From Crocinitomicaceae bacterium (GTDB lineage: Bacteria; Bacteroidota; Bacteroidia; Flavobacteriales_D; Crocinitomicaceae), in NCBI GenBank assembly GCA_024643725.1, contig JAHEMJ010000015.1, positions 124,001-188,000 of the forward strand: 64,000 bases of DNA. Reading direction: 5' to 3'. A program made the position numbers and the translations under genes. How positions within the stretch are numbered: position 1 is the stretch's first letter; each line of letters begins with the position of its first letter. The notes beneath the pieces were generated by a model. The model searched no databases, was not told the origin of the DNA, and saw only the letters and a program-made list of their open reading frames with translations. Positions 45,689-54,287 of the stretch are shown piece by piece.

Positions 45689-46660
45689 ATGGATAAAGTA
45701 TTAATCATTCAAACTGCATTTTTAGGAGACGTCATATTAGCCACGCCTCTGATTGAAAACATTCATGAACATTTCCCGAATGCGCAGATAGATTTTCTCC
45801 TGAAAAAAGGAAATGAGGCCTTGTTAAAAGAGCATCCTATTCTCCGAAAAACCTATGTTTTCGATAAGTCTCGAAAAAGAAAATCCATGATGGAATTGAT
45901 TCGATCCATTCGAAAGGAACAGTACGATTTGGTCATTAACTTGCACAGATTTGCTTCCTCCGGCTTGATAACAACCTTATCTGGCGCCAAAGAAACACGA
46001 GGATTCACAAAGAATCCATTTTCATTTTTGTACAGCAAACGAGTTCCTCACGAACTCGGAAAGGGACAACATGAAGTGGATCGGAATTTATCCCTTATTT
46101 CAGACTTCGTTGAACATCCACAACGCAGACCACAATTATTCCCAAGTCAAGCAGACCTAGACTTCGTCTCCCAATGGAAAAACGAAGCATACTTTTGTTT
46201 AGCACCCGCATCTGTTTGGTTTACCAAACAAGCTCCTCCTGCTGTTTGGCAATATGTGATGGAAAAGTTCGATGAGGATGGTGTTCAGTTTTATTTATTA
46301 GGCGGTCCAGCAGACTATGATTTATGTGAAGGCATCAAATTGGTCAGTCAGCGAAATAACGTGCATAATTTAGCGGGAAAACTAAGCCTGATGCAATCAG
46401 CCGCTTTGATGAAGGATGCCAAACGGAATTTCGTCAACGATTCTGGTCCATTACACATCGCATCCGCAGGAAATGCTCCGGTAAGTGCCTTCTTTTGCTC
46501 TACGACTCCTGCATTCGGATTTGGACCCTTGTCGGATGATTCGAATGTAATTGAAGTAGAAAACTTAGCCTGTAAACCTTGCGGATTACACGGACACAAA
46601 GCTTGTCCAAAAGGACATTTTCAATGCGGAAATGGATTGGTTGAGGCGATGAATCAGTAG
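45689..46660 (+). CDS. Glycosyltransferase family 9 (heptosyltransferase-like)
   Basis: A 323-residue GT9 enzyme, probably adding heptose or another sugar to LPS core at the cytoplasmic face. Motifs: VLIIQTAFLGDVILATPLIENI at the N-terminus, VINLHRFASSGLIT, FVNDSGPLHIASAGNAPVSAFF (donor-binding), and a conserved Cys/His cluster at the end (CKPCGLHGHKACPKGHFQCG). The ATG follows the previous stop without a gap. Its last 86 coding bases are duplicated exactly at 51517-51602. The present end reads EAMNQ and stop; the downstream copy reads EAMNA and stop. The gene therefore appears intact but with a swapped last residue. Confidence 0.92.
   Translation: MDKVLIIQTAFLGDVILATPLIENIHEHFPNAQIDFLLKKGNEALLKEHPILRKTYVFDKSRKRKSMMELIRSIRKEQYDLVINLHRFASSGLITTLSGAKETRGFTKNPFSFLYSKRVPHELGKGQHEVDRNLSLISDFVEHPQRRPQLFPSQADLDFVSQWKNEAYFCLAPASVWFTKQAPPAVWQYVMEKFDEDGVQFYLLGGPADYDLCEGIKLVSQRNNVHNLAGKLSLMQSAALMKDAKRNFVNDSGPLHIASAGNAPVSAFFCSTTPAFGFGPLSDDSNVIEVENLACKPCGLHGHKACPKGHFQCGNGLVEAMNQ
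46568..46653 (+). repeat. 86-base direct repeat, upstream copy
   Basis: Identical over all 86 bases to 51517-51602. It encodes the Cys-rich end of the glycosyltransferase (from A-C-K-P-C to E-A-M-N). Internally it has three short arms, GGACA, TGTCC and GGACA, that can pair as alternative hairpins. Confidence 0.98.
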
Positions 46661-46693
46661 AGCAATGACAATTGTGCTCATTTGATACCGTTA

Positions 46694-46713
46694 CGCTGAA
46701 GTTACTGCTGCGA
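46694..46713. repeat. Imperfect palindrome near left end of inserted segment
   Basis: A 20-base site following the pattern CGC-n-G-n-AGT...ACT-n-C-n-GCG. It matches the palindrome at 51488-51509 in inverted orientation with one substitution and a two-base insertion. Alternatively it is a terminator between the convergent glycosyltransferase and T9SS genes. Confidence 0.65.
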
Positions 46714-46720
46714 CAATACA

Positions 46721-49579
46721 TCACCTAATCACCACCACACTTCCCGTTACCTGGAATTTATTCACATACCCAAGCTCCTTGTATTTTACTAAATACGAAT
46801 ACACACCATCTGGCGCATCGAAGCCAGCGAGGGATGCGTCCCAACCTTGTTTTGGATCCTGGCTGTAAAATACGAGTTCTCCCCAGCGGTCGTAGATGTA
46901 CATTTCGTAGCTCGCCAATTTCATGTTTTCAGGGAAAACGGCCGTAAACTCATTGTTCAAACCATCACCATCGGGTGTGAAGGCATTCGGAATGAAGACC
47001 ACAGGATCGTGTTCAACGACAATGACTTGCGAAGTGGTATCCATGCAACCGATTTGGTTACTGACTTGCAAGCTAACCAAGTAGGAACCTGCTTCTTCAG
47101 GGAAGGTATGTTCGGGCGAGAAAATACTGTCGTTGCTTGCTCCATCGCCAAAGTTCCAGTTAAAAAAGTAGGCATTCGAAGAGTTGTTGTCCATGATGGT
47201 ACTTGGCATGTACAGTGGCAAAACAGAATATTGTGGCGTGAAATCAGCTACGGGATTGGCAAGAATCGTCAGGACTTGATTCACGACCTGTGGACAACGT
47301 AAACCAAGACTGGTATTTGTGATTCCAACTGAACTCGGAGTGAAGGTATAGTTTTGTGTGGCTTGGTTGTTGAAAGTGGGAGTCCAGATTCCGGTGATAC
47401 CCTCGATGGAGACATCGGGAAAATTGAACACAGCATCCTCACACAAAGAATCTACGAAGTTAAAGCTTGGAGAAAGGGTTGGAATGATCGTCATCGTTTC
47501 ATTCACGGACGATGCGCACGCACCAAGAACGGTGCTGATATCTGGACTAAACGTGTACGTCGCACTCAATTGATTATTGAATGCTGGAGTCCAAGTTCCC
47601 GAAATGCCATTGATACTTGTTGTTGGAAAAACAAACGATGTTCCCTCACACAAACTATTCAAAAGGGAAAAATTCGGAGTTATCGGTGGGACAATCACCA
47701 CAGTGTGTTGTGTTGAAAAAAGGCAGGTCGCAGTGTTACTATTATCTGGCGTAAAGGTATATATTGCGCTGTTTTGGTTATCAAAAGCTGGCGACCATGT
47801 TCCCGAAATGGAATTCATGGAAATCATTGGGAACGTCAGTTGCCCATTCAAACAAATGGAATCGAGTAAACTAAAGGTTGGAATCGTTGATGGAATAATA
47901 TTCACCGTATGTTGAGTCGGCGTGGGACAACCCAAGGCAGGAGAAGAAATCGTTGGTATGAAGGTGTAGGTTGTTGTGTTCTGGTTATCGAAAGCTGGAG
48001 ACCATGTTCCGAAGGCGCCGGTTTGAGTGGACACAGGAAAAAGCAGGTTGTCATTCTGACACAAACTTGTAGCGAAATTGAAGAATGGCGTCGTCTGTGG
48101 GACGATCTGCACGGAAAGTTGCAAGGGTTGATTGCAGGTGGTGTCGTTCGGTAAAAAGTAATACGTTCCTGAACTTTGGTTATCGAAAGCCGGCGACCAA
48201 ACTCCATCAACATTATTCAAGGAAACATTAGGCAAAGTATAGCTTGTTCCTTGACAAAACGGACCAACATTCCCGAAATTCGGATAGATAACAGTCGTGA
48301 GGGAAATTGTAGAATCATTCGACGTATTGTTTCCAAAATTACTCTCGGGATAAACACCTAACTGCGTCGCATTTTGGTTCACCACCATGCTCAAACTAAA
48401 CGGACTCGCAATACTTGAAGGAATGTTTATCAATGTACTTAAACTCAAACTATCACCGATGAGAATATCATTCGGTAATAGAACAGTCGAAAGCAAAACA
48501 CTATCATTGGCATAGACCGAAATAGGTGTTCCCGCTAGCAAGGTATCATTCGAATTGACATTGTACACCTTGTAATCCAAGGTCAAATCATGATTTTGAC
48601 AAATGTCTTGGCCAGTTATATTGTCAAGTGAAATGGTGGCATCTGGAAGTTCAGATTGTATGGAGGTGATGATAGTTGAGAACAATACAGGCATGGCGGA
48701 TCCTGCAGCTATCAGAAAACTATTATCACCAACATTTATATAGTTATCAATCCCATAGGTGTCGACATCCATTTGCCAGCTGGAGTTGCTATTAGTAAAA
48801 CAATTGGTACTATTAAATGGATTATTAGGAGGGTTTTGAGCGTTACTCAAAGTTGAGTTATTTACTTTCAATGTTTGCCCTAATACAATAGTAGAATTAC
48901 CTAAAAACGAAATCATCGTCATTTTCGCTCCTAGGGTATTTGTTACATTTAAATTATTGATTGGAAAATTTATTAAAGGGATTCCAGACCCATTTGAAGC
49001 AAAACGTAAGCCGTCATATATGTTGAGTTGTTTATTGGGAAGGTTTACATTTGAATAAACAATAATTATATTCCAACCAGCAAAGTAAATACCTGTATTG
49101 TAATAGTTCCCTTGATAAGGATTTAAGTCGAAATTCGATACCTGATAATTTCCGTTTCCCGTTGCTTGAACAAAGCTTGTTATATCTTTTACTGCCGAAA
49201 AATAAAAAGATGGAGTTGTAGCTGTTGGAAAAACATTTGCAATATTGATAAAATCGGGTGAAATGGTTGAACCGTTTAAGCTGATTGATGTTGCCATACC
49301 ATTTGTTATTCCAGCCCAAATTAGATATGCACCTACAACGGTTTGATTTGAGGATAAGTTCAGCGAAGCAGAGGAATTAGTTAGCATTGTACCTAAAGGC
49401 GGTTGCGGACTTCCCCAAGCGTCAGTAGAATTATGAGTATTACCAATAATGGTATAATCGTAAGTTCCGTTAAATTGTTGAAACAGAGTGTGTGGTACGC
49501 TGTTTTGAGAAAAAACAAAATAAGTAAACAAGCAAAAGCAGATTGCAAATACAATATTTGATTTTTTATTCCTCCTCAT
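46721..49579 (-). CDS. T9SS type B secreted protein with five WxPAFxNQ repeats
   Basis: A 952-residue protein in the inserted segment. Signal peptide about 1-24 (FCLFTYFVFSQ). Residues about 25-330 form a beta-rich domain (VVGAYLIWAGITNG, GWNIIIVYSNVNLPNKQLNIYDGL). After a CARDB-like module, about 430-775, come five repeats of 65-70 residues, each with a Cys, an FP or LP turn, then GxWxPAFxNQxxxxYTFxP. A PKD domain follows (FFNWNFGDGASND) and the type B sorting domain ends the protein (VFIPNAFTPDGDGLNNEFTAV, IYDRWGELVFYSQDP). By eye the N-terminal third is richer in A/T than the repeat part. No enzymatic motif seen. Confidence 0.9.
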   Translation of the reverse strand: MRRNKKSNIVFAICFCLFTYFVFSQNSVPHTLFQQFNGTYDYTIIGNTHNSTDAWGSPQPPLGTMLTNSSASLNLSSNQTVVGAYLIWAGITNGMATSISLNGSTISPDFINIANVFPTATTPSFYFSAVKDITSFVQATGNGNYQVSNFDLNPYQGNYYNTGIYFAGWNIIIVYSNVNLPNKQLNIYDGLRFASNGSGIPLINFPINNLNVTNTLGAKMTMISFLGNSTIVLGQTLKVNNSTLSNAQNPPNNPFNSTNCFTNSNSSWQMDVDTYGIDNYINVGDNSFLIAAGSAMPVLFSTIITSIQSELPDATISLDNITGQDICQNHDLTLDYKVYNVNSNDTLLAGTPISVYANDSVLLSTVLLPNDILIGDSLSLSTLINIPSSIASPFSLSMVVNQNATQLGVYPESNFGNNTSNDSTISLTTVIYPNFGNVGPFCQGTSYTLPNVSLNNVDGVWSPAFDNQSSGTYYFLPNDTTCNQPLQLSVQIVPQTTPFFNFATSLCQNDNLLFPVSTQTGAFGTWSPAFDNQNTTTYTFIPTISSPALGCPTPTQHTVNIIPSTIPTFSLLDSICLNGQLTFPMISMNSISGTWSPAFDNQNSAIYTFTPDNSNTATCLFSTQHTVVIVPPITPNFSLLNSLCEGTSFVFPTTSINGISGTWTPAFNNQLSATYTFSPDISTVLGACASSVNETMTIIPTLSPSFNFVDSLCEDAVFNFPDVSIEGITGIWTPTFNNQATQNYTFTPSSVGITNTSLGLRCPQVVNQVLTILANPVADFTPQYSVLPLYMPSTIMDNNSSNAYFFNWNFGDGASNDSIFSPEHTFPEEAGSYLVSLQVSNQIGCMDTTSQVIVVEHDPVVFIPNAFTPDGDGLNNEFTAVFPENMKLASYEMYIYDRWGELVFYSQDPKQGWDASLAGFDAPDGVYSYLVKYKELGYVNKFQVTGSVVVIR

Positions 49580-49647
49580 TACATGAAAGTTAACAATTAA
49601 TCCGATAAAAAGTTTGAAATCAGAAGTCTTAATAGAATATAAATTAT

Positions 49648-49681
49648 AACACCACCATTTAAAAATTTAAATGATGGTGTT
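49648..49681 (-). terminator. Hairpin downstream of the S74/T9SS gene
   Basis: Arms of 13 bases at 49648-49660 and 49669-49681 pair with a single mismatch. It lies just after the stop at 49697 on the minus strand. The sequence after it is A/T-rich but lacks a solid T-run. Confidence 0.5.
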
Positions 49682-49696
49682 AGTGTTCATTCAAAA

Positions 49697-51124
49697 TTAT
49701 TTAATCATCATTCTTTTAGAAATAATTTCTTGTCCATTCTGATTTAGGCTATAAATAAACATCCCTTTACCAATTTCGGATGCAAGGATATCTACCTCAC
49801 CTGAATTTCCTTCAAGAGTGTAATCTTTCACAAATGCACCGTTTAAATTAAAAATAGAAAGTGTCGCAGTCTCAACACCAGTAGCTAACTGAAAATGGAT
49901 AGCAGTTCTATCAGAAAAAGGGTTTGGAACGTTTTGTTCGATAGAATAACCATTTACAGATGGTACATTTTGAATAATTTGTCCTCGCACTACATCATTT
50001 GCTTTATATTCATCCAAATCTTGTCGAACTGCTGTCAATTCCTCATTCAATTCCTTAACCGCTTCTGTGAGAATAGAAATCATACCAACATAGTTAATTG
50101 CTTTGAAGGAAAATTCAGAAACTACTTTACCATCATTATCAAAAACAGGTTTTGTAATGTCACGCGTAAGCTCTGGAAATACTTCTGCCATTTCTTGGGA
50201 AATGAAGCCATGTTGCGTTCCTTGCGGAAGATTTTGCCCATCCATCTTCTTGTATTGGTATGAAACAGGATGTAGCAAGTTGATTCTGTCTAAAATGTTA
50301 ATTTCGGCAGCAATATTCTCTTTCATTTTAGCATCAGAAGGCATGTAAGTTCCTGTTGTGTAAACATCCCCGTCAAAATAACCGGCCCAAAGATTTGGTC
50401 CGGGAGAGGGTAACAATCCATAGATTGCTGCTCCAAATTGAGTAGTCGTGCTTGAAATTCCATAAACACCAATTGAGTTAGAAAATCCTTCAGCTTTTCC
50501 AAGAACCGCAATTGAAGTTTCTCCACCGCTTACACTTGATTCTAATCCTTTGGCAACATTCGTTTGGTGGGAGAGTCCAATTCTTATACCATAAGGATCA
50601 GTTACAGTCAATACTCCATCAGAAACAACCTCAAGTCCAGCTCGTCCGTTGAATGAAATACCAACTCTTGGGACTAATGGCGCAAATAATGAATTGTTTA
50701 CACCAAAATAAGTGCTTCCTTGGGGTGTCATGGAGGCAACCAAATTACTTATTCCGCCAGTAAAACCATTTGCAACACGAAACTCCAAATTTCCTGCTGA
50801 CGCTCCACCACTATGAATCCATTCAATTCTGGGATTACTTGGTGAATTATTAGTATATCCAGTCACTAATGCACGTCCATCATACTGAAATCGATTACCA
50901 TAAAATGTTTGACCACCTTGTGTTACTTCCCCAAAACTTAACCATCTGTTTCCAGAACCGGTTCCAAAACCTGTTCCTGATTGAATTTGACTGGCATAAC
51001 CTTGGTCAAATCGGAAAATTTCAGGACCTGCAAGTAAAGTGTTAGTTGGACTTGTAATTACTTGATTCTGCCCAAAAGCCAAACCACAGCCAAAAAGGCC
51101 GAAAAATAATAAATGTTTTTTCAT
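49697..51124 (-). CDS. Secreted protein with endosialidase-type chaperone (peptidase S74) domain and T9SS type A sorting domain
   Basis: A 475-residue protein in the inserted segment. Signal peptide 1-19 (CGLAFGQ). Residues 20-255 are Gly/Ser-rich beta structure like a phage tail fibre or trimeric stalk (IAVLGKAEGFSNSIGVYGISS). At 262-375 is an S74 intramolecular chaperone domain: PSDAKMKENI (candidate cleavage Ser263, basic K266 and K268), HPVSYQYKK, QHGFISQEMAEVFPEL, then a coiled coil (ILTEAVKELNEELTAVRQDL). Residues about 395-475 are a type A sorting domain (QNVPNPFSDRTAIHFQL, MFIYSLNQNGQEIISKRMMIK). S74 domains guide trimer folding and then cut themselves off. Confidence 0.9.
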   Translation of the reverse strand: MKKHLLFFGLFGCGLAFGQNQVITSPTNTLLAGPEIFRFDQGYASQIQSGTGFGTGSGNRWLSFGEVTQGGQTFYGNRFQYDGRALVTGYTNNSPSNPRIEWIHSGGASAGNLEFRVANGFTGGISNLVASMTPQGSTYFGVNNSLFAPLVPRVGISFNGRAGLEVVSDGVLTVTDPYGIRIGLSHQTNVAKGLESSVSGGETSIAVLGKAEGFSNSIGVYGISSTTTQFGAAIYGLLPSPGPNLWAGYFDGDVYTTGTYMPSDAKMKENIAAEINILDRINLLHPVSYQYKKMDGQNLPQGTQHGFISQEMAEVFPELTRDITKPVFDNDGKVVSEFSFKAINYVGMISILTEAVKELNEELTAVRQDLDEYKANDVVRGQIIQNVPSVNGYSIEQNVPNPFSDRTAIHFQLATGVETATLSIFNLNGAFVKDYTLEGNSGEVDILASEIGKGMFIYSLNQNGQEIISKRMMIK

Positions 51125-51516
51125 TTTAAAAAAAATTAGTTAATGCTCTACTTTGATTTAAGGAGTGTTCGAGTCAAATTTTTCTCCTTTCTAATTGAAT
51201 GAAAATGGATATTTCGCTCGAGTTACCTTCACAATCAAAGTATAATTCTCGTTAGTCAAATTAAATGAAAAATTTAGTAAGGATTTTTCTCTAGAATGGA
51301 AGCGGGAAATGGACTTATATAGGATTTACGCGTCAATACTAGACGTAGTCAAGAATGTTGAATTTTGTGATCGAAGAAATTTGGGTATAAATACCTATTA
51401 ATTTAAGTACATATACTAATTCAAATTTTGGTTTTGAATCGCGATTTAAAAGAATTTTGGGGATTAAAAAGGTTGCGAATAGAAGTATCGCAGCAGTGCA
51501 ACTGCAGCGGAGCGGG
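51125..51516. other. Gene-free stretch at the right end of the inserted segment
   Basis: About 390 A/T-rich bases upstream of the S74 gene. It should hold that gene's promoter; TAATTTTT at 51132-51139 on the minus strand is a one-mismatch -7 candidate. Its last 30 bases turn abruptly G/C-rich and contain the palindrome at 51488-51509. No open frame with supportable coding content. Confidence 0.6.
51488..51509. repeat. Imperfect palindrome near right end of inserted segment
   Basis: CGC-a-GCAGT-gca-ACTGC-a-GCG: eight paired positions with one mismatch, seven bases before the downstream 86-base repeat. It matches 46694-46713 in inverted orientation. Confidence 0.7.
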
Positions 51517-51602
51517 GCCTGTAAACCTTGCGGATTACACGGACACAAAGCTTGTCCAAAAGGACATTTTCAATGCGGAAATGGATTGGTTGAGGCGATG
51601 AA
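51517..51602 (+). repeat. 86-base direct repeat, downstream copy
   Basis: Perfect copy of 46568-46653. The bases before it (51516 and upstream) and after it (51603 onward) differ from those at the first copy. Confidence 0.98.
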
Positions 51603-51609
51603 CGCCTAA
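51517..51609 (+). pseudogene. Displaced 3' end of the glycosyltransferase gene
   Basis: Thirty in-frame codons reading from A-C-K-P-C to E-A-M-N-A, then TAA at 51607-51609. It has no start and no upstream coding sequence. The stop overlaps that of the convergent membrane-protein gene (51606-51608). I take it as the original end of the glycosyltransferase gene, displaced by the inserted segment. Confidence 0.75.
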
Positions 51610-52103
51610 TTCAATTGGAATAGCGGATCATTCAACTGTTCGATTTCCGTTCCATTTAATTCTAAATCACTGATTAATTGATCGGTTTTTGGGAAGGAAA
51701 ACAAGTAAACAAGCATTACCGCAATGGCAATATACATGAACACGATGTTGCTGGATAACAAATATGCTACGATGCAAAATAGATTTGGTCCTTCCATGAG
51801 CGCATAACGAATGATTAATGCCGAACGATACGACTCTAATTTTTCTTTGAAGGTTGGTTTTTCTTTAGCCTTTTGAATTGCCGTTTTTGAGAGGAAATGT
51901 CCACCAATGAGTCCTCCCAAAACCATCATCGGTACGATGTAAGAAAATACATCGTTTGGATCATGTTCTCCATATTGAATCGGATTTTTGACATTCAGGT
52001 AAAAGGTAAGTCCTGCAAATGTAAATTGTCCTAAAAAAAGTGCCCAATAAGTCACTTTCATTGCGCGAAGGAATCCTCCGGATGTTTGAATAACTGTTGC
52101 CAT
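51606..52103 (-). CDS. Conserved four-helix membrane protein, unknown function
   Basis: A 165-residue integral membrane protein with hydrophobic segments at about 19-37, 50-70, 96-116 and 119-138 (TYWALFLGQFTFAGLTFYL, FSYIVPMMVLGGLIGGHFL, IVFMYIAIAVMLVYLFSF). A charged loop (KAKEKPTFKEKLESYRSALIIRYALMEGPNLF) lies between helices two and three. The C-terminal 25 residues are acidic and cytoplasmic. I recognise the type from Bacteroidota genomes but not a named family. Its stop overlaps the displaced glycosyltransferase end on the opposite strand. Confidence 0.8.
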   Translation of the reverse strand: MATVIQTSGGFLRAMKVTYWALFLGQFTFAGLTFYLNVKNPIQYGEHDPNDVFSYIVPMMVLGGLIGGHFLSKTAIQKAKEKPTFKEKLESYRSALIIRYALMEGPNLFCIVAYLLSSNIVFMYIAIAVMLVYLFSFPKTDQLISDLELNGTEIEQLNDPLFQLN

Positions 52104-52186: not shown

Positions 52187-52570
52187 CTATAAATCTTCGG
52201 CAAATGTTAAAATGTATCCATCTGGATCCATCAAAGAAAACTCCGTTGCTCCGTAAAACGTTTTCTCAAGTCCTTTTAACAAAAAAACAGAGTCCTTGAA
52301 CTGATCAAAAAGCTCCATCAATCCTTGAACTTGAATGTAAAATAACAGACTATGTTTCTCATTCACTTGAACTTCTGGAAGTTGATCACCTAGACTTTCC
52401 CAAGCCTGCAGCATGAGGGTTAACTCACCGCTTGAAATCATGCACCAATGAAATGGTTTCGTTTCCGGTACAGACATCTGAATGTCAAAGCCTAATTTTT
52501 GATAAAAATCTAAAGCCTTATCCATGTCTTTCACAAAGATGTTCGGCGAAAGTGAAGTGAATTTAATCAT
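52187..52570 (-). CDS. VOC-superfamily (glyoxalase/bleomycin-resistance-like) protein
   Basis: A 127-residue protein with the paired beta-alpha-beta-beta-beta units of the VOC fold: SPNIFVKDMDKALDFYQKLGF at the start and FSLMDPDGYILTFAEDL at the end. Metal ligands are not fully evident, so activity is unknown. The ATG overlaps the stop of the DUF1569 gene by four bases (ATGA), so both are made from one transcript. Confidence 0.85.
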   Translation of the reverse strand: MIKFTSLSPNIFVKDMDKALDFYQKLGFDIQMSVPETKPFHWCMISSGELTLMLQAWESLGDQLPEVQVNEKHSLLFYIQVQGLMELFDQFKDSVFLLKGLEKTFYGATEFSLMDPDGYILTFAEDL

Positions 52571-53028
52571 ACCCCAAATTGACGTAAATGATGATCGATG
52601 TGCTTATACAGTAGGTTATTCCACTCAATTGCGGTTAATTTCCCCAAAGTCAAGGATGATTTTGCACTTAATCCATCTGGGCCCAACTCTTGAATTTTCT
52701 GAACATAAGCGATTAAGTTCTGTTTCTCCGTTTCGATGTCAAAGTCTTGATTCAGGCGAATAAAGGTTGGACCAGTAGGCAAATTTGGTTTATACGGTGC
52801 TTCATTCACCATCGATTGTTTGAAGAAGGTTTTCAGCAACCATTTCATGAACATGCCGGGCTTATCGGTATTTTCTCCGAGCACTTGTTGATATGCCACA
52901 CAGCAATGTGAGAGCATTTGTCCAGCATTCATCTTTCCCCATAATGCCGGTGTTTCATTTGTCAACGCGGAAATTCTTGCCGCAAGGGAATCTGTTGTTT
53001 CCTGTAAATAAATGGAAGGTAAAGCCAT
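52567..53028 (-). CDS. DUF1569 / DinB-like protein
   Basis: A 153-residue protein starting MALPSIYLQETTDSLAAR at 53028. The frame is open to 53076, but the extra codons run through the sucC terminator. Features include WGKMNAGQMLSHC near residue 32 and YKHIDHHLRQFGV at the end; these histidines fit a four-helix metal-binding DinB-like fold. DUF1569 proteins have no established function. Coupled to the VOC gene. Confidence 0.82.
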   Translation of the reverse strand: MALPSIYLQETTDSLAARISALTNETPALWGKMNAGQMLSHCCVAYQQVLGENTDKPGMFMKWLLKTFFKQSMVNEAPYKPNLPTGPTFIRLNQDFDIETEKQNLIAYVQKIQELGPDGLSAKSSLTLGKLTAIEWNNLLYKHIDHHLRQFGV

Positions 53029-53047
53029 AAAAATAGAGGGATTAAAA

Positions 53048-53069
53048 AAGGCCATCCGAGGATGGCCTT
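53048..53069 (-). terminator. Rho-independent terminator of sucC
   Basis: AAGGCCATCC and its reverse complement form a ten-pair stem; on the minus strand a T-run follows. It starts seven bases past the sucC stop. Confidence 0.9.
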
Positions 53070-53075
53070 CATTCA

Positions 53076-54287
53076 TTATGCTAAAACTTCTTTGACCAAG
53101 TCAGCGGCTTCTTGTAGTTGCACAGCTGAATGGACATTCAGTCCTGATTCGTCGATTAATCGTTTCGCTTCAACAGCGTTTGTTCCTTGTAAACGAACAA
53201 TAATTGGAACTGGAATTTCACCGATGTTTTTGTACGCATCTACGATACCTTGTGCCACGCGGTCACAACGTACAATTCCACCAAAGATGTTAATCAAAAT
53301 TGCTTTTACGTTTGGATCTTTCAAGATGATGTGGAACGCTTTCTCTACGCGCTCTGCATTTGCCGTTCCTCCTACGTCCAAAAAGTTCGCTGGATTACCA
53401 CCTGAAAGTTTGATGATGTCCATCGTTGCCATCGCAAGTCCAGCACCATTCACCATACATCCAACGTTTCCGTCTAATTTCACAAAGTTCAATCCTGCCT
53501 CGTCCGCTTCCACTTCCGTTGGATCTTCTTCTGTTTTGTCGCGCATTGCTGCGTAATCTGGGTGACGGAACAATCCGTTTCCATCCAAGGTTACTTTTGC
53601 ATCAACTGCAATGATTTTATTGTCTGATGTCTTGAACAATGGATTAATTTCAAACATAGATGCATCGATGCCTTCGTACGCATTGTACAATGCTGGTACG
53701 AATTTGCACATTTGTTTAAATGCTTCACCTGAAAGTCCAAGGTTGAACGCAATTTTACGCACTTGGAATCCTTGAAGTCCAACACGTGGATCAACGAATT
53801 CTTTGTGTAATTTCTCTGGTGTGTGCTCCGCAACGTGCTCGATGTCCATTCCACCTTCCGTTGAATAGATGATCACATTTCTTCCTTTTTCACGGTCTAA
53901 TAATACAGACATGTAAAATTCTTGCGGTTCTGACTCACCTGGATAGTATACATCTTGTGCGATTAACACTTGATTTACTTTTTTACCTTTTCCATTTGTT
54001 TGAAGAGTAGTGAGGTGTCCACCTAGGATTCCCGCCACTTTTTCTTCCACTTGGTCCAAGCCTTTAGCGATTACGACACCGTGAGAACCAGTTTCTTCCA
54101 CTGTTCCTTTCCCGCGTCCACCAGCATGGATTTGTGCTTTCACAACAAACCAACTTGTACCTGTTTCCTCCGATAATTTTTTAGCAGCTGCTACAGCATC
54201 TTCTACTTTATCTACTACTATCCCCTCTTGAACGGCAACGCCGAAACTTTTTAAGATAGATTTTCCTTGATATTCGTGTAAATTCAT
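53076..54287 (-). CDS. sucC: Succinyl-CoA ligase beta subunit
   Basis: Catalyses succinyl-CoA + ADP (or GDP) + phosphate to succinate + CoA + nucleoside triphosphate in the TCA cycle. The 403-residue sequence begins MNLHEYQGKSILKSFGV and has the ATP-grasp motif VVKAQIHAGGRGKGT, EFYMSVLLDREKGRNVIIYSTEGGMDIEHVA, FEINPL, and NIFGGIVRCDRVAQGI. Length is close to the family norm. sucD is not adjacent, as is common in Bacteroidota. It is followed by a strong terminator. The sequence TACTTTTA at 54305-54312 (minus strand) is a one-mismatch -7 candidate. Confidence 0.97.
   Translation of the reverse strand: MNLHEYQGKSILKSFGVAVQEGIVVDKVEDAVAAAKKLSEETGTSWFVVKAQIHAGGRGKGTVEETGSHGVVIAKGLDQVEEKVAGILGGHLTTLQTNGKGKKVNQVLIAQDVYYPGESEPQEFYMSVLLDREKGRNVIIYSTEGGMDIEHVAEHTPEKLHKEFVDPRVGLQGFQVRKIAFNLGLSGEAFKQMCKFVPALYNAYEGIDASMFEINPLFKTSDNKIIAVDAKVTLDGNGLFRHPDYAAMRDKTEEDPTEVEADEAGLNFVKLDGNVGCMVNGAGLAMATMDIIKLSGGNPANFLDVGGTANAERVEKAFHIILKDPNVKAILINIFGGIVRCDRVAQGIVDAYKNIGEIPVPIIVRLQGTNAVEAKRLIDESGLNVHSAVQLQEAADLVKEVLA

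Follow-up and report, generated by a model that had tools for sequence, protein, structure and literature searches.

How can genes enter and leave a chromosomal site at which no recombinase is visible? Much bacterial gene gain occurs at hotspots without a visible mobile element, and the question is posed here by a 64,000-nucleotide (nt) stretch of a Crocinitomicaceae genome (contig JAHEMJ010000015.1 of assembly GCA_024643725.1, positions 124,001 to 188,000; hereafter the window). In the window a glycosyltransferase (GT) gene is followed by two genes for cargo proteins of the type IX secretion system (T9SS), cargo1 and cargo2, and behind these by a second copy of its own 3′ end. An earlier note on this DNA had taken the arrangement for an exchangeable cassette acting without its own recombinase, and had likened it to integrative elements that enter the 3′ ends of genes. 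Comparison with relatives establishes, at the level of DNA, insertion together with displacement of a gene end, recurrence at this one gene with differing passengers, and variable breakpoints. We read the GT gene as a 3′-end displacement locus, at which incoming DNA recombined with the resident gene, apparently without an enzyme of its own, and give this reading a probability of about 0.6. G, C and L numbers are our handles for genomes, contigs and loci; the genome of the window, G000, is a draft of 17 contigs and 2.71 Mb whose nearest named relatives, judged by GT, are metagenome-assembled genomes (MAGs) of Crocinitomicaceae and other Flavobacteriales.

Two copies of one gene end

The two copies of the GT end (Table 1) agree at 86 of 86 bases at a spacing of 4,949, as the earlier note had reported, and the open reading frames (ORFs) agree with its description of the upstream copy as the live gene end. 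Copy 2 likewise keeps its frame, reading ..EAMNA with a stop (TAA, 51607-51609) overlapping that of the convergent ORF. The 86-base sequence has exactly two matches in the whole draft, so that the search suggested for other cargo genes bounded by it in this genome yielded none, and it forms the sole direct repeat of at least 45 bases in the window, the internal repeats of cargo1 aside (seeds of 14). No inverted repeats of at least 20 bases were reported between 45000 and 53500, where the ends of the insert pair imperfectly only. Between the copies lie just the two minus-strand cargo genes that the note had described; both have T9SS sorting domains, and the remaining listed ORFs overlap these two.

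Both halves of this arrangement exist separately in relatives. In G061 and G062 (L023, L024) the GT gene is followed by a palindrome and then by the 3′ end of cargo1, as at copy 1. In G014, G075 and G063 (L031, L027, L042) an intact GT gene overlaps the stop of the convergent membrane-protein gene without any insert, as copy 2 does, which is the empty junction that the earlier note proposed to look for in relatives. Because the overlap is the same, copy 2 is the displaced former end of the GT gene; together with the DNA that follows it, it aligns with these intact junctions, across the stop, at 72% identity over 341 nt (G063), 71% over 295 nt (G014) and 69% over 295 nt (G075). Since both other junctions occur natively in relatives, the sole junction specific to the window is that of palindrome and copy 2 (51516/51517); on these alignments two alternative alleles of the locus are fused in the window. 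The outcome that the earlier note named as refuting its idea, every relative having the two copies together with an identical cargo, did not appear.

The GT gene of the window is itself a mosaic. From about base 250 onward it is 81-89% identical to the genes of G061 and G062 vs 74-76% to that of G063, whereas its first 250 bases show 71-73% identity to G061 and G062 vs 78% to G063 (partial coverage), and the gene upstream of it is also nearest to G063. Between the two copies there are 0 differences in 86 positions, against 4 for the nearest other GT gene and 2 for the closest two species compared, which fits the suggestion that perfect identity marks a recent or homogenised event. Either the event would be recent, or the copies have been kept alike, or the tail was duplicated inside one population.

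Displaced ends recur behind unrelated passengers

We searched 86 genomes of the genus and examined the DNA downstream of 68 GT loci from 67 of them; in the other 19 the best GT match had an E-value above 1e-58, too distant for an orthologue to be placed, and these genomes lie outside the survey. With a profile of the GT tail, 7 of the 68 loci show a displaced tail (a relic) at an E-value of 6e-6 or better, all downstream of the GT gene and on its strand, and none was counted in the 133 kb upstream. In the window the relic lies behind the cargo pair; elsewhere it lies behind an AbiEi-like (DUF6088) and AbiEii pair (G093), an AAA_14/DUF4143 ATPase (G076, G058), a LamG-domain protein (Laminin_G_3; one of two GT loci of G064) and a beta-propeller protein (G084, G013), the passengers of G058 and G013 being assigned by family membership only. 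Profile matches not counted as relics had E-values of 0.26 and 23 (both G100), 1.0 (G000), 1.9 (G048, the sole upstream match) and 2.0 (G070), and matches of a separate comparison, at 0.001-0.004 in G003, G100, G024, G070, G099 and G095, were also left uncounted. Less than 2 kb follows the GT gene at 11 of the 68 loci, five of which (L024, L113, L123, L134, L141) have less than 450 nt, so relics may be missed at these short loci.

Among the ORFs sampled, this behaviour was seen for the GT gene only. When the C-terminal 45 residues of 687 ORFs with at least 150 amino acids (aa), GT copies included, were compared with their surrounding DNA, relic-type matches came from GT alone, five times, at a stricter threshold below which the most decayed relics (G084, G013) fall; two paralogue matches in L097 were set aside. 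The ORFs comprised 300 from the window and a 400-kb sample of its own genome, and 94 and 293 from loci around the GT genes of relatives. On the GT tree, from which the partial gene L041 was excluded, the relic label requires six changes, at least five of them forced by well-supported branches, and is no more clustered than shuffled labels (88 of 500 were as low). One of the six may be spurious because the short locus L134 (G086) adjoins G013 in the tree; because G086 is truncated and the tails of G058 and G064 share their upstream joint, we count at least four events. A convergent sucC gene follows the GT gene within 70 nt at 13 of 68 loci, is separated from it by 0.3 to 6.4 kb of other DNA at 22 more, and was not found in the downstream stretch examined at the other 33. 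Two loci labelled Chryseobacterium gleum (L028) and Chitinophaga pinensis (L032) fall within the genus of the window on the GT tree, and their records are probably mislabelled MAGs.

Several relics can be traced to intact junctions elsewhere. The G093 relic and the DNA following it match the intact GT junction of the sister species G085 at 86% over 259 nt, and those of the relic locus of G064 (G064a) match G097 at 90% (236 nt), the second locus of G064 at 87% and G096 at 85%. In G076 and G058 the end of the tail and the next 16 bases are those of the intact GT gene of G089, in which the next gene belongs to the same family as the passenger of these two genomes. The relic is nearer to the GT gene of another species than to that of its host in G093 and G076.

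The points at which the tails begin differ, by eye, from about one codon before the first Cys of the motif CxPCGLHG in the window to four in G093, 9-11 in G076, G058 and G064, and more than 25 in G013. Where compared, the GT gene differs in its last residues only, and the passengers are separate ORFs. No recombinase was found among the relic-flanked ORFs, whose Pfam assignments are cargo, AbiE, AAA_14/DUF4143, Laminin_G_3 and beta-propeller, the genomes as such not having been searched for integrases. Because the breakpoints vary and the inserts lack a recombinase, an integrase acting on an attachment (att) site is argued against, and with it the analogy that the earlier note drew with site-specific integrative elements. 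Its notion of an exchangeable cassette without a recombinase holds up in outline, in that close species have different genes at the site and no such enzyme was found in the relic-flanked inserts.

The cargo pair is bounded by a palindrome

The cargo pair is bounded by a palindrome with the core GCAGTTGCACTGCTGCG. In G093 (L175) and G075 (L181) this palindrome occurs in inverted copies (+ and -) around a 191-aa ORF for a Y1 transposase (PF01797, E 2.2e-7 and 2.4e-8), for which reason we regard it as a repetitive extragenic palindrome (REP) with a REP-associated tyrosine transposase (RAYT). Between 1 and 16 REP copies with at most one mismatch are present in 11 of 12 genomes of the clade vs 0 for a reversed control. 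Its length and setting recall subclass 2.6 of the Bacteroidetes as treated in the available portions of PMC6006769 and PMC8266576, which report subclasses 2.6 and 3 without a GT[AG]G foot; no constant foot was visible by eye in the copies that we inspected.

On either side, homology between units stops at the REP, which holds for three sites in four genomes: beside the GT gene in the window, beyond the membrane-protein gene in G063, and in G073 and G093 in an interval between genes that we take, from their sequence, to be pckA and an ABC transporter gene, the G093 unit spanning a contig gap. At this last site G085 is empty with a single REP and G073 is filled; the left flanks of the two are identical up to the REP and the right flanks nearly so from the REP onward, save for a 10-base gap beside it. 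Five cargo pairs are complete on one contig, and three of them have REPs on both sides (the window, counting its degenerate copy, G063 and G073:C152), while a fourth, in G093:C17, has a REP on one side and is followed by the contig end. In these alignments the pair shows itself as a discrete, REP-bounded unit placed at different sites in different species, and the REPs may act as its landing or recombination points.

The earlier note proposed a search for other cargo genes bounded by the palindromes; such genes occur in relatives (G063, G073) and not in G000, where one core within one mismatch and one degenerate copy both lie at the cargo pair. A genome-wide REP family in G000 was ruled out, since a longer pattern at up to three mismatches finds the same single place. 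In G063 (86% complete) the two REP copies both bound the cargo pair. Y1 transposases were found in 6 of the 12 genomes; bracketing by the REP was shown for the genes of G093 and G075 and not for the matches in G073, G062 and G014, the last of which has none of these REPs nearby. No cognate RAYT for this REP was found in G000, whose sole Y1 transposase (L064, C5:100028-100372) is surrounded by GACCCCTTCAGGGTC-type repeats, apparently another repeat family. A 30-kb stretch of G093 (C11:12000-42000; L173-L174) holds eight REP-like copies at spacings of 0.1-6 kb; ORFs and a cargo1-like gene lie among them, and several of these ORFs end less than 150 bases from a REP.

Mechanism and alternatives

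We propose that DNA in which passenger genes adjoined a GT 3′ end recombined with the resident GT gene. The resident gene would keep an intact end (copy 1) that now leads into the cargo pair, and the end that it had before (copy 2) would be pushed 4.9 kb downstream, still overlapping its old neighbour, the membrane-protein gene. The incoming DNA may have been a circle, integrated through one crossover in the GT tail. A single crossover between a GT end and a circle carrying part of the GT gene would give repeats of variable length, and the repeats left by a circle would permit RecA-dependent re-excision and re-integration at any GT end. ComEC is present in G000, so that DNA uptake may be possible. 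A bolder form of this idea, which we advance tentatively and consider rather less probable than displacement as such, is that the GT 3′ end serves as a RecA-dependent attachment site, with surface and defence genes entering and leaving as tail-bearing circles without a recombinase. Such small circles, circulating within the genus, would carry the GT tail, plus REP palindromes in the case of the T9SS cargo pair; a single crossover would rebuild the gene and displace the old end, and exit would proceed through the repeats.

Several observations weigh against the displacement reading or its proposed route. No circle was observed, 86-230 bases are short for RecA recombination, and ComEC, the only hint of DNA uptake, is likewise present in 10 of 14 control genomes. 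The 86/86 identity could stem from alike donor and recipient tails, from later homogenisation or from duplication of the tail within one genome. The relics of G064 (G064a) and G084 are nearest to their host's own GT gene; those of G076, G058, G084 and G013, with the DNA following them, matched no relative's intact junction at the threshold of the test; and the exact arrangement of the window was found in none of the other loci examined. As to the REPs, the contig of the complete cargo pair G014:C2 shows no copy with at most one mismatch, and the left REP of G063 is reversed relative to other loci. All genomes are drafts, and most of the named ones are MAGs.

A linear donor could instead have paired with the GT gene at one end and been closed by a non-homologous joint inside the recipient's GT tail (homology-facilitated illegitimate recombination, HFIR), the joint being confined to the tail since one further downstream would destroy the convergent neighbour. 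Such a process fits the varying right-hand joints, of which that of the window shares about one base, and the presence of ComEC, and the frequent abutment of the GT gene on convergent sucC would select joints within the tail; however, the products described for HFIR carry deletions, duplications being ascribed in the available text of PMC3240628 to single crossovers of circular DNA, and only selection would explain why the repeat-flanked form recurs. We regard HFIR as unlikely. Still less probable is a rearrangement within the genome, in which the GT tail, membrane-protein gene and cargo pair were duplicated in tandem and the first membrane-protein gene and second cargo pair then lost: the tails would have been identical at birth, and in G063 the cargo pair does lie on the far side of the membrane-protein gene, but two matched deletions are required and the unrelated passengers with relics in G093, G076, G058, G064, G084 and G013 are left unexplained.

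That one gene end was used repeatedly and left intact each time would also suit site-specific integration, with the tail as attachment sequence and an integrase supplied in trans, yet the tails break at differing points and no recombinase was found in the relic-flanked DNA, which makes this very improbable. An assembly chimera of two strains having a common 86-base tail is equally hard to credit, if not harder. The region is hard to assemble, since the contigs of five relatives stop within 450 nt of the GT end, but six other genomes have relics with differing passengers, and a misjoin at the 86 bases would leave the junction between REP and GT tail, which itself implies either this arrangement or a circle.

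Relation to known systems

Integrative elements that enter gene 3′ ends rebuild the gene with a copy of its own end, and the insert is flanked by direct repeats. The GT locus is like them in both respects and differs in having neither a visible recombinase nor a fixed crossover point. Closer is the displacement of rhs C-terminal ends, for which homologous recombination via a circular intermediate has been proposed (Jackson et al., 2009; PMC2935791, as far as its text was available). There, too, a short direct repeat of a conserved gene part is formed, the live gene gains a new end, and the old end is shunted downstream as a fragment, the repeat being variable in length. The 7 of 68 GT loci have a displaced end of the same gene downstream, on the same strand and behind foreign DNA, and the displaced fragments vary in length. 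Whereas the tip of the rhs gene itself is exchanged in the account of PMC2935791, the GT gene changes near its end only and the passengers are separate, unrelated genes. With HFIR, as the accessible part of PMC3240628 presents it, the locus shares one homologous and one non-homologous joint and the gain of foreign DNA; HFIR products carry deletions, whereas here the recipient's GT end is kept as a duplicate. The same source ascribes duplications of 109-950 bp in E. coli to single crossovers of circular molecules, HFIR having given deletions. The repeated palindrome, with the Y1 gene that its inverted copies bracket in G093 and G075, resembles REP/RAYT (TnpAREP) systems, but the REPs here also bound a two-gene surface-protein unit, while the available portions of PMC6006769 and PMC8266576 describe REPs, not gene units, as moving.

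Searches of open-licence literature, at the level of titles and the beginnings of abstracts, found work on rhs, HFIR and REPs and nothing that describes the present arrangement. Within one genus, unrelated passengers have repeatedly displaced the end of a housekeeping gene, which we class as a variant of a known process. The displaced gene end is a readable trace of each event, from which direction, order and partners can be read in the sequence. Because genes as unrelated as those for surface proteins, a toxin-antitoxin pair and an ATPase occur at one gene end, a simple test for recombinase-free gene traffic follows, namely whether accessory genes have relic tails of core genes downstream of them. 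How T9SS surface proteins shuffle among loci and species is suggested by the cargo pair and its bounding REPs.

The locus and the cargo genes

Table 1. Features of the GT locus, in positions of the window
Feature	Position	Strand	Evidence
GT family 9 gene, heptosyltransferase-like, intact, ends ..EAMNQ, TAG	45689..46660	+	PF01075 E 3.7e-31; orthologues across the genus
Copy 1 of the 86-base repeat, live GT 3′ end	46568..46653	+	repeat comparison
Degenerate REP palindrome bounding the unit next to cargo1, CCGTTACGCTGAAGTTACTGCTGCGA	46688..46713	.	alignment with the corresponding position at seven other loci
cargo1, surface protein of 952 aa; PKD domain, type B T9SS sorting domain, internal repeats	46721..49579	-	CHU_C 7.3e-14, TIGR04131 6.2e-11
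cargo2, 475 aa; Peptidase_S74 (chaperone) and type A T9SS sorting domains	49697..51124	-	PF13884 2.7e-13, TIGR04183 2.3e-8
Upstream region of cargo2	51125..51488	.	conserved within the unit in four genomes (three sites); between-site similarity stops at the REP
Full REP palindrome CGCAGCAGTGCAACTGCAGCGGAGCGGGG, its last G being the first base of copy 2	51489..51517	.	sequence; copies in relatives
Copy 2 of the 86-base repeat, relic of the earlier GT 3′ end, now displaced	51517..51602	+	repeat, tail-profile and junction comparisons
Convergent 165-aa gene, former GT neighbour; membrane protein according to the earlier note	51606..52103	-	no Pfam match
Downstream flank: glyoxalase-like gene, DUF1569 gene, sucC	52187..54287	-	ORFs, Pfam

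The Peptidase_S74 (endosialidase chaperone) domain is known mainly from phage tail proteins, and cargo2 unites it with a T9SS sorting domain. A phage source of cargo1 was rejected, as three phage records matched, all below 60% identity and with at most 33% coverage among the matches listed, GT not having been searched in phages; a plasmid source of GT was likewise rejected on 54 plasmid records, all below 60% identity and some of chromosome size, the cargo genes not having been searched in plasmids.

G000 contains a second cargo1-like gene (L199, C3:116345-119158; 74% identical), beside which (C3:119303-119716) pieces of a cargo2 3′ end and of a cargo1 5′ end look like the remains of an older, broken-up pair. 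In G093 a tandem array (C17:58049-64601; L187, L222) consists of cargo2, cargo1, a cargo2 3′ fragment with two stops inside the matched stretch, and a second cargo1 reaching the contig end. The last 61-67 residues of cargo1 have 98-99% matches at three contig ends of G062 (C6:3-203, C11:3-185, C33:189609-189791), so that this assembly seems to have been broken by a near-identical repeat of the cargo 3′ end. Between GT and sucC in G085 (L028:10521-10820) only a 33-residue match to the cargo1 C-terminus was found, adjoining a REP and without a DUF1569 match, and the interval looks like a deletion scar.

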